NCBI GenBank assembly: GCA_947446025.1
Contig: CANFEY010000007.1
Location: forward strand, 1-64,000
DNA length: 64,000 nucleotides
Direction: 5' to 3'
Source: Bryobacterales bacterium
GTDB lineage: Bacteria; Acidobacteriota; Terriglobia; Bryobacterales; Bryobacteraceae
Part shown: one piece after another, positions 24,490-28,427 of the stretch
How the letters are laid out: each line of letters begins with the position of its first letter
How positions within the stretch are numbered: the stretch's first letter is position 1
The notes under the pieces: generated by a model
The model's database searches: none
What the model was told of the DNA's origin: nothing
The model's input: only the letters and a program-made list of their open reading frames with translations
Position numbers and translations under genes: made by a program

Positions 24490-24510
24490 TACGGTTGTTC
24501 TGCAACCGTA
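24490..24510 (+). promoter_or_regulatory. Perfect hairpin just upstream of the CHAT operon
   Basis: TACGGTTG (24490-24497), loop TTCTG, CAACCGTA (24503-24510). It ends 19 bases before the GTG of the CHAT gene and immediately before its ribosome binding site (GAGGTAAG). It may be an operator or a leader-RNA hairpin. Confidence 0.5.
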
Positions 24511-24529: not shown

Positions 24530-26953
24530 GTGGCCCACCTCCCCCGAGGCCTCTGCGTCGCCCTCGTATTGTGGTTGGCAATGTCGCGCTCATCGACAGC
24601 CAGCCGGACCGAGTCGCCTGACCCTGTCCAATGGTGGCGCACGCAGGAATTTGAACAGATCCAGAAGTCCGCGGAGAGCCTGCGCAAAGGCGGCGACTTT
24701 GCCGCGCTCGAAAAGTTGTATGTCAAGGCCGTAGGCCAGGCGCGGGCGGCGAAAAATCTGCGCGCCCAGACCAGCTACCTGACGGCGCTGGGCAACACCT
24801 ACGTTTTTCTATTCCGCTATTCGGACGCGATTCAAGCTTACGCGCAAGCGCGCGACTTGGCACATGCAAGCAGCGACTGGCTTGCCGAAGGCGCAGTGGC
24901 TCCGGGGCTTTCCAGCGTGTACCTATTGGTGGGCGATTGGCCGGCAGCTCGGGAAAGCGCGCAAGCGGGCCTCGAAACCGTCAAGCGGTTGCCCACGCCG
25001 CCCTACTATGATGCCCAACTGAAGCTGCAGCACGCTCGTCTGAATCCTGGCGGAGACCGTACAGCCGCGGAGATTCTACAGGCGATCGATGCTACGCACG
25101 CGCAGCCCAACGTAGCGCTGGAGGCGGAGGCGTGGGATCTGCTGGGCGAAGAGCGCATGCGGCGGCGCGATTTTTCCGGAGCGGAGGCCGCTTTGGACAG
25201 CGCGTTCCGCCTGCGCAAACTGCACTTGCATCGCGATACGCGGCTTTCTTATTGGAGATTGGGCGCGCTTCGCTTGGCGCAAGGCCGGCTGGATGAGGCC
25301 GAACGCCTGACGGCATCCGCCATTGGAGAAATGCACTTGGAGGGGTCGGCTGTGTCCAGCCGGAACCTGCTGCTGCAACGCGGGCTGATCGCACAGGCGC
25401 GCGGCAACACAGATGCCGCGCTGCTCGATTTCGAGGCCGCCGCGCGCAGTGCCGAGCATTGGCGGCAAGCGATCCCGCCGCTTTCCCGGTCCTCGCTGGC
25501 TGCGGCCGATACGGAGGCCGACCGGAAGGTGTTCGCCACCTTTATTGAGGCCGCCGCCAGAAAAGGTCTGGCCACGGACGATGCCAAGTGGATCCGCAAG
25601 GCGCTGATGGCCGCCGAGCGCAATCGGGCGGCTAGCCTGCGCCAATCCGCTGCGTTGGCCGAAGTCTGGCGCCGCAAGCTTCCGTCTAAGTATTGGCAAA
25701 CACTGGCTCAACTGCGGACCGAGGAGACACGCCAAGTGCAGGCGGAAGGGGTGGGCGCGCAGGAGAATGCGGTGGTGGAACGGCTCCACCTAGCCCTCAC
25801 CGAGATGGAGGCCACCGCCGGTCTAGGGTATTCGCCTAATAAGATTGAGAATTTTTCCTCTGAGCGCTCACTTAGTCTTTTTCAGAAAGGGCTAAGGGAA
25901 TCGGAGTTATTCCTTAGTTTCTACACAGGAGCAGGAGAATCCTACCTGTGGGCCGTGACCCGGGAGAGCATCCATCTCTATGTGCTTCCCGCGGCGGATC
26001 GGATGGATGTGGCCGTGCAGAGTTTCCGGAACGCAGTGATGCAACATAAATCGAAAGCAAGCGAACTGGGGGAACACCTCTACGGAACGCTATTCGGGAA
26101 GCTGGACGCGCAAGAGTCGGGGCGTCCGGCTTGGATTCTTTCCTTGGAAGGTCCGCTGTTTGACGTTCCGATGGCGGCGCTGCGGCACAACGGAAAGTAC
26201 CTGGTGGAGGAGCACTCTCTGCAAATCACGCCGAGCGCGACATGGCTACAGACCGCCAAAACCGCTCCGGCAAAGAACAGCTATGTGGCCGTGGGGGATC
26301 CGATCTACAACTGGGCGGATGAGCGGCTGCGGCCGGCGGAATGGTCCGTGCGGACCTCACCCTATTATATTCCGGGCCAGTTGAACCGGCTGGTAGCGAG
26401 TGGCGAAGAGATACATCGCATCGCTCGTGTGTGGGGAAAACAAGGAACCGTGCTGGATGGACGGGATGCATCCCGTGCATCGTTCTTGAAGGCCGTTGCC
26501 ACGCAGCCCGCGCACGTATTCCTGGCGACGCACGTGGTGGCCAAGGGCACCCAGCGGGACCAAGCGTTTCTGGCTTTCTCCATTGGCGAAGGGGGCAGTC
26601 CTGAGCTGGTGGGCACTGCGGACATTGCGATGTTGCAGGTTCCCGGCGCGCTGGTGGTAATGAGCGGTTGCTCCTCCGGCGTGGGCGAGGCGAGCCCTGG
26701 TGCCGGGCTGTTGGGACTCACGCGCGCGTGGCTCTCCGCAGGGGCGCATGCGGTGGTGGCCACCAGCTGGCCGATGGACGATGTGCAGGGAGGCCTGCTA
26801 CCGGCTTTTTACGAAAATCTTGGGTCGGGCGCGAACCCGATGCCGGCGGCCGAAGCCCTGCGGAGGGGGCAGGCGGCGATGATCCACTCCGGCACATGGC
26901 AGGCCGACCCCGCTTATTGGGCGGCTTTCCAACTCACCGGCGGCGTCCGGTGA
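24530..26953 (+). CDS. TPR-CHAT protein (caspase-like protease), exported or membrane-tethered
   Basis: An 807-residue protein. The hydrophobic N-terminus (LCVALVLWLAMSRSSTA) looks like a signal peptide or anchor. Residues about 35-330 form TPR-like helical repeats (LTALGNTYVFLFRYSDAIQAYAQARDLA; RDFSGAEAALDSAFRLRKL; GRLDEAERLTASAI). A linker with coiled-coil character follows. The C-terminal CHAT domain (about 470-807) has the catalytic dyad His668 (FLATHVV) and Cys714 (VVMSGCSSGVG), plus the family end GLTRAWLSAGAHAVVATSWPM and AYWAAFQLTGG. CHAT proteins are relatives of caspases and separases. A sigma factor and an anti-sigma-like protein follow in the same direction. GTG start with GAGG nearby. 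Confidence 0.9.
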   Translation: MAHLPRGLCVALVLWLAMSRSSTASRTESPDPVQWWRTQEFEQIQKSAESLRKGGDFAALEKLYVKAVGQARAAKNLRAQTSYLTALGNTYVFLFRYSDAIQAYAQARDLAHASSDWLAEGAVAPGLSSVYLLVGDWPAARESAQAGLETVKRLPTPPYYDAQLKLQHARLNPGGDRTAAEILQAIDATHAQPNVALEAEAWDLLGEERMRRRDFSGAEAALDSAFRLRKLHLHRDTRLSYWRLGALRLAQGRLDEAERLTASAIGEMHLEGSAVSSRNLLLQRGLIAQARGNTDAALLDFEAAARSAEHWRQAIPPLSRSSLAAADTEADRKVFATFIEAAARKGLATDDAKWIRKALMAAERNRAASLRQSAALAEVWRRKLPSKYWQTLAQLRTEETRQVQAEGVGAQENAVVERLHLALTEMEATAGLGYSPNKIENFSSERSLSLFQKGLRESELFLSFYTGAGESYLWAVTRESIHLYVLPAADRMDVAVQSFRNAVMQHKSKASELGEHLYGTLFGKLDAQESGRPAWILSLEGPLFDVPMAALRHNGKYLVEEHSLQITPSATWLQTAKTAPAKNSYVAVGDPIYNWADERLRPAEWSVRTSPYYIPGQLNRLVASGEEIHRIARVWGKQGTVLDGRDASRASFLKAVATQPAHVFLATHVVAKGTQRDQAFLAFSIGEGGSPELVGTADIAMLQVPGALVVMSGCSSGVGEASPGAGLLGLTRAWLSAGAHAVVATSWPMDDVQGGLLPAFYENLGSGANPMPAAEALRRGQAAMIHSGTWQADPAYWAAFQLTGGVR

Positions 26954-26984
26954 AACAGGCAACAGACAGGCGGGACCAGAACGT

Positions 26985-27716
26985 ATGATGGGCCAGACAA
27001 TGGAACAAATCGAGTTCGCCACGGAAGCCAGGACAGTCCTGGTGGAAGCGGCGGTCGATGTGGTGTTCGCGGACCAGGAATTCGGCGGCGCGGGCGAGGA
27101 GAGCAGTGAGGCGTGCAGCGAGTGGGCGGATCTGGTGGAACGCATCCGGGACGGTAAGACCGACGGAATGGAGGAACTCTACGGCCTGTTTTCCCGCGGC
27201 ATCCGCTTTTATTTGATCCGGCAACTGGGTCCGCAGGAAGTGGAAGACAAGATCCACGACACTTTTCTGCTGGTGGTGCAGGCGATCCGCAGGGGGGAAC
27301 TGCGCGATTCCACCCGGTTGATGGGGTTTGTGCGCACCATCTGCCGGCGCCAGATCGCAGCCCATATTGACCGGCTGGTGCAGAGCCGCCGGGAGCAGGG
27401 CGAGGTAGACACCACGCCCCGCATCATGGACCCGAACTCAGATCCAGAGCAAACCGCTATCTTCTCAGAGAGAAAGGACATGATCCACAGGGTCCTCTCC
27501 GAAATCCCGGCCCGTGACCGGGAGATTCTGACCCGTTTCTACCTGCTGGAGCAGAGCCAGGAGCAGATTTGTTCGGAAATGGACCTTTCGGACACCCAAT
27601 TCCGGCTGCTGAAGTCCCGCGCCAAGAGCCGGTTCGGGGAGTTGGGAAAAAAAAGACTAGCACATCGAAATTTACAGGCAGTTTTTTTGAGAACTTCTGC
27701 CTCCCTATCGCACTAA
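26985..27716 (+). CDS. RNA polymerase sigma factor, sigma-70 family (ECF-like)
   Basis: A 243-residue protein. Region 2 is seen at about 55-130 (MEELYGLFSRGIRFYLIRQLGPQEVEDKIHDTFLLVVQAI, then LMGFVRTICRRQIAAHI), and region 4 at about 165-220 (VLSEIPARDREILTRFYLLEQSQEQICSEMDLSDTQFRLLKSRAKSRFGEL). Regions 1 and 3 are missing, as in ECF factors, but there is an N-terminal extension of about 50 residues. It starts 31 bases after the CHAT gene and precedes a zinc-binding membrane protein by 21 bases. Possible starts are 26985, 26988 or 27000. It should direct transcription when released from its partner. Confidence 0.9.
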   Translation: MMGQTMEQIEFATEARTVLVEAAVDVVFADQEFGGAGEESSEACSEWADLVERIRDGKTDGMEELYGLFSRGIRFYLIRQLGPQEVEDKIHDTFLLVVQAIRRGELRDSTRLMGFVRTICRRQIAAHIDRLVQSRREQGEVDTTPRIMDPNSDPEQTAIFSERKDMIHRVLSEIPARDREILTRFYLLEQSQEQICSEMDLSDTQFRLLKSRAKSRFGELGKKRLAHRNLQAVFLRTSASLSH

Positions 27717-27737
27717 TAGCTAGGCGGCAATGCCGCT

Positions 27738-28427
27738 ATGTTAAGAGACGAGAGCCCTGTCATGGAGCCGAACAAGTTGGAAAAGCCGCGAGCCGCAACC
27801 GCCCACCCGAGCGGAGACGTTTTGGAGAACTATGCCCTCGGGAGGCTGGTGGAACCGGAATTAGGCCACGTGGAAACCCATTTGTTTGTTTGCCATAGCT
27901 GCCAGGACGCACTGATCGAGACCGATGAATACGTCTCGGTGATGAAAAGCGCTCTGGCCGAGCCCCTGCCCGAGGCCGAGTCCTGGTCCACCCGCTGGGC
28001 GGCATTCGCCGGGCGGTTTACGGATTCCCTGCGGATTCCCCGCACTGTTCCCGTCTACTGCGCGGCACTCGCAACCCTCTCCCTGATGGCGGTGCTGTCG
28101 CAGGGCTATGTGCCCGGGCAGGCCGAAGGGACCGCGATCACGCTGCGCTCGGTTCGCGGCGGCGTGGAGGCTACGCGGGCACAAGGCCCGGCGGCACCGC
28201 ACCTTCGGCTGCGCATCGAATCTCCGTACTTATCCCCCGATCAGGCCTTGGAAGCCAGAATCGTGGACGCGGGAGGCAAGCAGACCTGGGCGGGCCGGCC
28301 CTTGTTCCATCACGATACGGGCTACGTCATGCAGGTGGACAGCGAGCTTGGCGCGGGAACCTACTGGGTCCGGCTCTACGATTCGCAGCAGCGGCTATTG
28401 CAGGAATACGGATTGCAGCTGCGGTAG
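27738..28427 (+). CDS. Membrane zinc-finger anti-sigma-like protein
   Basis: A 229-residue protein. Residues about 30-65 contain HVETHLFVCHSCQDAL; the HxxxCxxC (His48, Cys52, Cys55) is the zinc-binding anti-sigma (ZAS) signature. A single transmembrane helix lies near 101-120 (VPVYCAALATLSLMAVLSQGYVP). The C-terminal 100 residues form an extracytoplasmic beta domain (LRLRIESPYLSPDQALEARIVDAGGKQTW...YWVRLYDSQQRLL). This topology is that of regulated-proteolysis anti-sigma factors. It most likely restrains the sigma factor encoded just upstream. ATG at 27738 or 27762 are both possible. Confidence 0.8.
   Translation: MLRDESPVMEPNKLEKPRAATAHPSGDVLENYALGRLVEPELGHVETHLFVCHSCQDALIETDEYVSVMKSALAEPLPEAESWSTRWAAFAGRFTDSLRIPRTVPVYCAALATLSLMAVLSQGYVPGQAEGTAITLRSVRGGVEATRAQGPAAPHLRLRIESPYLSPDQALEARIVDAGGKQTWAGRPLFHHDTGYVMQVDSELGAGTYWVRLYDSQQRLLQEYGLQLR

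Follow-up and report, generated by a model that had tools for sequence, protein, structure and literature searches.

A CHAT-sigma-anti-sigma gene trio of Bryobacteraceae: joint loss of the CHAT protein and the outer anti-sigma domain suggests a sigma switch worked from outside the cell membrane

The one worked-out pathway from a CHAT protease to a sigma factor that is known to us is that of the CRISPR-linked Csx29, which, according to the available part of its description (PMC10028731), cuts Csx30, an inhibitor of CASP-sigma. In Myxococcus, inactivation of DdvA leaves DdvS active, and the accessible portion of PMC4374960 reports the signal as unknown. CHAT-domain proteins also stand in the conserved gene neighbourhood of ECF54, as stated in an excerpt of PMC8999054. 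Here we describe a TPR-CHAT protein, an extracytoplasmic function (ECF) type sigma factor and a membrane anti-sigma factor that are encoded side by side in a Bryobacterales bacterium (GCA_947446025.1, contig CANFEY010000007.1, positions 1-64,000 of the plus strand; this stretch of 64,000 nucleotides is the window, to which the coordinates refer). An earlier note on this DNA had proposed that the CHAT protein could cut the anti-sigma protein and release the sigma factor. DdvA, Csx29 and ECF54 are known relatives of the arrangement, and of these DdvA and the ECF54 neighbourhood had been overlooked by that note. Across the family, the CHAT protein and the outer domain of the anti-sigma factor are kept together and lost together, which suggests that the protease works the sigma switch from outside the cell membrane.

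Coupled presence and loss of the CHAT protein and the outer anti-sigma domain

The trio was followed through two samples of genomes. In the first set (101 genomes, comprising relatives and the window's own), 69 genomes matched the CHAT protein, many of them through other CHAT proteins, and 53 places were taken as orthologs. The order CHAT-sigma-anti-sigma on one strand was found at 47 of these 53 loci. At the remaining six, the anti-sigma gene is displaced (G050, G026 and G036) or a contig end splits the trio and the rest of it lies on a different contig (G013, G031 and G056). For the second sample, 200 family genomes were scanned with the sigma factor, which was matched at E 1e-45 or better in 185. 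Among the places listed, 105 were new; 100 were analysed as the main batch and the other five separately, three of the five having CHAT and a full anti-sigma gene. CHAT adjoins sigma at 90 of the 100 loci, and all three genes are side by side at 72. These counts rule out a chance neighbourhood, and conservation of the trio in acidobacterial relatives, on which the earlier note had made its proposal depend, holds. Clustering of the surrounding reading frames at the 53 loci gave the trio as the sole unit common to nearly all of them; among the neighbour clusters listed, none was present at more than 11 of the 53 loci, antisense shadows of the trio aside.

All 148 CHAT-positive genomes (53 + 92 + 3) were found to encode a beta-domain anti-sigma factor, even where one gene had moved. 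The 148 include G013, G031 and G056 despite the contig ends that cut their trios, and several CHAT genes that are truncated at contig ends or fragmented. A strict full-length criterion was passed by 145 of the 148 anti-sigma copies (125 bits at the lowest). Of the remainder, that of G056 is truncated at a contig end, with only the transmembrane and beta parts seen, that of L042 is matched in two stretches and that of L148 (in G127) is split over two overlapping frames. The anti-sigma gene sits elsewhere in about 20 genomes. In the second sample, each of the 18 CHAT-positive genomes without an adjacent anti-sigma gene holds a full-length one elsewhere (147-182 bits, from model positions 4-13 to 209-210). 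In G115 and G220, where a full anti-sigma gene is present and CHAT is not adjacent, the CHAT ortholog lies on a separate contig (741 and 551 bits).

Fourteen genomes that were searched whole have no CHAT ortholog (G016, G023, G029, G042, G055, G060, G138, G160, G163, G180, G198, G203, G209 and G213). The sigma factor is kept in all 14, and none has an anti-sigma match of 100 bits or more. The best CHAT match in these genomes scores 337 bits, and G016 and G055 have none at E 1e-20. In 12 of the 14, the gene beside sigma is a zinc-domain stub of about 60-145 codons; a search beside sigma in G138 and G163 gave no anti-sigma gene. The stubs are without a clear membrane helix, except in G023 and perhaps G160, and that of G055 and some others are interrupted by stops or frame breaks, perhaps a sign of decay. 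G016, which belongs to the window's own genus, retains a CHAT remnant (31.6 bits) 5' of sigma. Four of the genera, labelled g1, g34, g73 and g80, contain both states. Longer, distant relatives of the anti-sigma factor, scoring 57-70 bits from positions 6-9 to 190-195, were found in G160, G203, G213 and G198. A different CHAT gene lies about 3 kb away in each case; these relatives were rejected as orthologs and taken as paralogs, because ortholog copies score at least 125 bits.

Some genomes stand outside these counts. G148 is CHAT-less with a stub beside sigma, as seen at the sigma locus; G199 is CHAT-less and ambiguous in its anti-sigma state. In G001, which is 65% complete, sigma is matched more weakly (179 bits), and neither CHAT nor a full anti-sigma gene was found. 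Among 16 genomes of low completeness or in which sigma was not found, five (G110, G130, G147, G234 and G249) gave a CHAT match of 411-858 bits in a search limited to CHAT. Four of the five matches are cut by contig ends, and that in G234 (79% complete) is a lone CHAT gene.

With the sigma gene standing between the parts that are lost, a single deletion cannot remove both and leave sigma whole. A tree of 57 sigma sequences, comprising all 14 CHAT-less rows and 43 hand-picked from the 144 others (158 in total), was built by a quick search under a simple model, with a long-branch warning for L084 and L124. A single CHAT-less clade was rejected (approximately unbiased test, p-AU 6.3e-5); the supported branches force at least six changes of state, and the best tree has nine. 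Both traits change together in six of six supported independent pairs (sign test, p 0.031), a small number of contrasts. Collectively, the loss of CHAT accompanies that of the full-length beta-domain anti-sigma factor, and the reading that the two act together on the outer side is well supported by these comparative data.

The three proteins and a promoter-like element

The three genes lie on one strand with intergenic gaps of 31 and 21 bases (Table 1). Reading frames and profile matches bear out this layout, the His668/Cys714 dyad and the HxxxCxxC motif as the earlier note had read them.

Table 1. Features of the trio in the window (aa, amino acids; pLDDT, predicted local distance difference test; ZAS, zinc-binding anti-sigma domain; TM, transmembrane helix)
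Feature	Position	Strand	Basis
TPR-CHAT protein, 807 aa, GTG start	24530..26953	+	PF12770 and TPR matches; model pLDDT 85.6; fold like Csx29, DdvA and separase
N-terminal hydrophobic segment, putative signal peptide or membrane anchor	24530..24610	+	Hydrophobicity of orthologs
CHAT domain	26063..26941	+	Pfam match, residues 512-804
His668 codon, dyad	26531..26533	+	Ortholog alignment
Cys714 codon, dyad	26669..26671	+	Ortholog alignment
ECF-type sigma factor, 243 aa	26985..27716	+	TIGR02937 over cut-off; family-wide matches
Promoter-like element TGAGA-N18-CACTA, overlapping the sigma gene 3' end, 5' of the anti-sigma gene	27684..27715	+	Fixed-spacing counts
Membrane anti-sigma factor, 229 aa	27738..28427	+	Conserved ZAS, TM and beta-domain architecture
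Zinc motif H48-x3-C52-x2-C55	27879..27902	+	Full-length copies aligned
Predicted transmembrane helix, limits approximate	28050..28109	+	Model helix 106-121 and hydropathy
Extracytoplasmic beta-sandwich domain, invariant Arg140 and Glu223	28131..28421	+	Model strands 132-228

The CHAT protein matches PF12770 at E 1.8e-45 (156.1 bits against a cut-off of 24), its TPRs were also matched, and it is the single CHAT match found in the window's own genome. The dyad, intact-looking according to the earlier note, is invariant: counting once per genome, all 143 orthologs readable at the first position have the His, 5 of the 148 being cut short, and all 147 readable at the second have the Cys, with 1 of the 148 cut short. 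The mean column identity of the protein is 35% over 43 aligned copies. Of 120 full-length orthologs, 114 have a hydrophobic stretch among their first 90 residues, compared to 6 of 480 control stretches from their TPR parts. The CHAT protein thus looks exported or membrane-tethered, in keeping with the suggestion of the earlier note. The 80 best named relatives are nearly all acidobacterial metagenome-assembled genomes, many labelled Bryobacterales or Bryobacteraceae. Two acidobacterial CHAT genes (L300 and L372) lie in records titled Bordetella parapertussis and Acidimicrobiia, titles that look wrong for these metagenome-assembled genomes.

The sigma protein scores 54.8 bits against TIGR02937 (sigma70-ECF; cut-off 42.9), and its Pfam matches are above the family's own cut-off for region 4 and below it for region 2. 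Searches of PDB sequences with the single sequences of the sigma protein and of the CHAT domain gave no match, and the sigma profile found nothing among PDB sequences at E 1e-10.

No Pfam match was obtained for the anti-sigma protein, and its NCBIfam matches are below threshold only. A profile of it has weak similarity to the PDB chains of ChrR, RsiW and DdvA. From this and the gene neighbourhood, we infer that it would bind and inhibit its cognate sigma factor. H48, C52 and C55 of the zinc motif are kept in 144, 144 and 145 of the 145 full-length copies, and the maximum of 19-residue hydropathy has a median of 2.06 and reaches at least 1.6 in 131 of 145. In the outer domain, R140 and E223 are present in all 145 and are candidates for recognition or for the fold. 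A fold search with the beta domain returned generic immunoglobulin-like, SKICH-like and CopC-like sandwiches (best Z 8.7), with no family named. At one locus (L036, 9746-10001), the contig end after sigma resembles the start of an IS110-type transposase, and a full anti-sigma gene lies near the end of a different contig.

The pattern GAGA-N18-CACT was found at exact spacing 5' of 95 of the 145 full-length anti-sigma genes (0.4 in shuffles) and 5' of 14 of 21 displaced ones, compared to just 2 of 116 loci for TGAGA-N18-CACT 5' of CHAT. The motif was first spotted by eye, so these counts test a post hoc motif; searches of whole genomes are a more independent check. Motif discovery by expectation-maximisation, attempted twice, returned mostly the coding end of the sigma gene, and a seeded run together with the fixed-spacing counts gave the element. 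In the window's own genome, the strict element has two sites, one before the anti-sigma gene and one before the gene of a 323-aa protein. This protein has no Pfam match, and one ortholog has a weak molybdopterin-biosynthesis match. The 323-aa gene and its orthologs were followed at L267 185-1245, L268 1107-2204 and L262 1501-2592; the orthologs of G007 and G010 are preceded by the element and that of G014 is not. The reversed pattern has no site in the window's own genome, G007, G010 or G014. Across the 101 family genomes, the strict pattern has 60 sites (43 genomes with a match) compared to 5 for the reversed pattern; many of the 60 precede unrelated genes, and the element may not be exclusive to the sigma factor of the trio.

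We read TGAGA-N18-CACTA as the likely target of the trio's sigma factor, and its position before the anti-sigma gene suggests autoregulation. Of the 'one operon' that the earlier note had described, the adjacency on one strand stands; a separate promoter-like element before the anti-sigma gene, and the displacement of that gene in some genera, make the description incomplete.

Other recurrent sequences were seen at these sites. Behind the element, and named by eye, are an exported-looking protein of about 150 aa (L269, L278, L285 and L297), a BON-like protein (L279 and L280) and transposase-like proteins of the RAYT type (L271, L286 and L291). Just 5' of the CHAT start in the window is a perfect inverted repeat, TACGGTTG-TTCTG-CAACCGTA (24490-24510). 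Many family members have instead an extended -10-like TGGTATGAT before CHAT (25 of 116), followed by a longer GTAC-rich inverted repeat, the arms of which differ yet pair (by eye). The extended -10-like pattern TGGTAnnAT stands 5' of CHAT at 50 of 116 loci (2.3 in shuffles).

CHAT genes that are not orthologs of that of the trio were collected at 28 places. Three of them (L095, L104 and L106) match the trio's own sigma profile in the retrieved stretch. With a looser sigma profile, an ECF gene was found within 2.5 kb on the same strand at 9 of the 28 (seven before and two after CHAT) and at none of the other 19. The link between CHAT and ECF genes is broader than the trio, and the 28 places are an unclean negative control. 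A second arrangement, in which an ECF sigma gene and often an anti-sigma-like gene are followed by a different CHAT protein, was seen at L104 (3004-7710, with a further gene between) and L106 (6359-11318), as well as at L083, L100, L101, L102 and L110. CHAT appears to have been recruited to sigma systems on more than one occasion.

A possible outside-in switch and its rivals

In the switch that we propose, the zinc domain of the membrane anti-sigma factor would hold the sigma factor. The TPR part of the exported CHAT protein would sense an envelope or extracellular signal, and the CHAT domain, once activated, would make the site-1 cut in the outer part of the anti-sigma factor. Degradation of the anti-sigma factor would be completed by an M50 protease together with proteases of the cytosol, and the freed sigma factor would turn on TGAGA-N18-CACTA promoters, including that of its own anti-sigma gene, as a negative feedback. 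Cutting of the outer anti-sigma domain, as a site-1 protease, is the likeliest role of the CHAT protein, and we lean slightly towards the whole chain from CHAT cleavage to sigma release being correct. The main idea of the earlier note gains support from the coupled loss, among other findings, and is partly supported, with cleavage still hypothetical. We know of no site-1 protease of an ECF system that is a CHAT cysteine protease.

Several observations weigh against this switch. The coupled loss points to joint action and leaves cutter and target unassigned. The contrasts behind it are few: a tree of all 158 rows has nine changes and only three supported pairs, and the rejection of a single CHAT-less clade rests on the 57-row tree. 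The genomes are mostly drafts and mutually related. One CHAT-positive genome, G153, encodes the CHAT half only beside sigma, with no TPR half (L136, 2254-3699); it is the CHAT-positive member of g34, and its genus mates G055, G180, G198 and G209 have lost the CHAT ortholog. M50 matches number five in the window's own genome, and M50 proteases occur in all 14 control genomes; they are near-universal and so lend little.

Binding alone would explain the coupled loss equally well: CHAT could be a sensor or co-regulator that attaches to the outer anti-sigma domain, as RseB does to RseA, and sets the stability of the anti-sigma factor without acting as its protease. DdvA shows that a CHAT domain can stand inside an anti-sigma chain. 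However, pure binding would not require both dyad residues, yet the His and the Cys never vary (143 and 147 readable copies) in a protein of 35% mean identity, and we regard this explanation as rather unlikely. We consider it quite improbable that the beta domain keeps CHAT inactive, in the way that securin holds separase, with CHAT cutting other envelope proteins and sigma serving as a subsequent alarm. The CHAT fold matches that of separase, and an unguarded exported protease could harm the cell, which would likewise couple the two. A leftover guard would be harmless, yet no full-length anti-sigma factor without CHAT was seen among the genomes searched; this is a weak argument, as cleavage by CHAT also leads one to expect few. 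That the zinc domain and the guard share one chain would also be unexplained unless sigma release is the output.

CHAT could also be a passenger, the gene of an exported protease that travels with a stress sigma factor and whose product makes no contact with the anti-sigma factor. Exported proteases are usual targets of ECF sigma factors, these genomes commonly encode other CHAT proteins, and at 19 of the 28 non-orthologous places there is no ECF match within 2.5 kb on the same strand. Against this, the element stands 5' of CHAT at 2 of 116 loci compared to 95 of 145 anti-sigma genes, a sigma gene recurs beside CHAT at the other 9 of the 28 places, and the disappearance of the outer anti-sigma half together with CHAT, across an intact sigma gene, would be left unexplained. 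A passenger is in our judgement very improbable.

The trio would be a chromosomal, membrane-crossing version of the CHAT-to-sigma pathway. It recurs in many members of a large family of soil bacteria, where natural losses can be compared and a promoter sequence can serve as a reporter, and this makes it directly testable whether CHAT proteases drive sigma factors through anti-sigma cutting. No published description of a CHAT-sigma-ZAS trio was found in the open-licence literature, which is weak evidence of absence from print.

Relation to DdvA, Csx29, ECF54 and RseA

DdvA of Myxococcus is the closest relative of the arrangement. Its structures are PDB 8rw5, 8rot and 8rlz, the organism being assigned through the protein name and the accessible portion of PMC4374960. 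The model of the CHAT protein aligns to DdvA (8rw5) with Z 20.3 over 576 residues (root-mean-square deviation 6.0, DdvA 295-991). By Z in VIA-align, the best match of the model is Csx29 (25.8), with other Craspase chains and separase among the further matches; by Foldseek E-value, DdvA is first and Csx29 close. Residues 831-977 of the 991-aa DdvA chain are matched by the CHAT-domain profile (E 8e-9), and the dyad positions fall in the motifs ATHG and AACEGG. For the anti-sigma profile the matches are weak, at E 0.034 to DdvA 7-95 and at E 0.025 to the construct 8rlz. With the anti-sigma profile matching at the N terminus and the CHAT profile at the C terminus, DdvA naturally fuses relatives of the two proteins whose losses are coupled in Bryobacteraceae. 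Like the trio, the DdvA/DdvS pair of M. xanthus has a transmembrane ECF anti-sigma factor with an N-terminal zinc domain, and a C-terminal TPR-CHAT part with the dyad motifs. In contrast, DdvA is one fused chain, whereas the trio has two separate proteins with the sigma gene between their genes and an anti-sigma factor that ends in its own beta domain.

In the Csx29-Csx30-CASP-sigma system of type III-E CRISPR, an inhibitor protein likewise links a TPR-CHAT protease to an ECF sigma factor, but there it is target RNA on Cas7-11 that activates. No Csx30 chain was present among the 14 PDB matches (E up to 1) of the anti-sigma profile. ECF54 shares the CHAT neighbour, but is described as controlled by proteolysis without an anti-sigma factor, in the excerpt of PMC8999054. 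This state, a CHAT neighbour and no anti-sigma factor, was not encountered, as the anti-sigma gene is adjacent or elsewhere in all 148 CHAT-positive genomes; no ECF54 profile was used.

Regulated proteolysis of the RseA/DegS type is alike in that a one-helix anti-sigma factor carrying an outer domain restrains the ECF sigma factor. The site-1 protease of RseA is a DegS-type serine protease, whereas here it would be a CHAT cysteine protease encoded next to its target. It is a tentative view, which we hold as plausible rather than probable, that the exported TPR-CHAT protein is a dedicated site-1 protease in a family-wide chromosomal module, a split counterpart of DdvA, and that CHAT has been built into sigma switches repeatedly. 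The trio would then be a plausible older setting for the CHAT-sigma arm of the CRISPR system and would give a reason for the CHAT domain in DdvA. If this is true, Bryobacteraceae would have the split form of the CHAT-sigma switch and Myxococcus the fused one, with an RNA-guided form in type III-E CRISPR and the order sigma-anti-CHAT at other acidobacterial loci.

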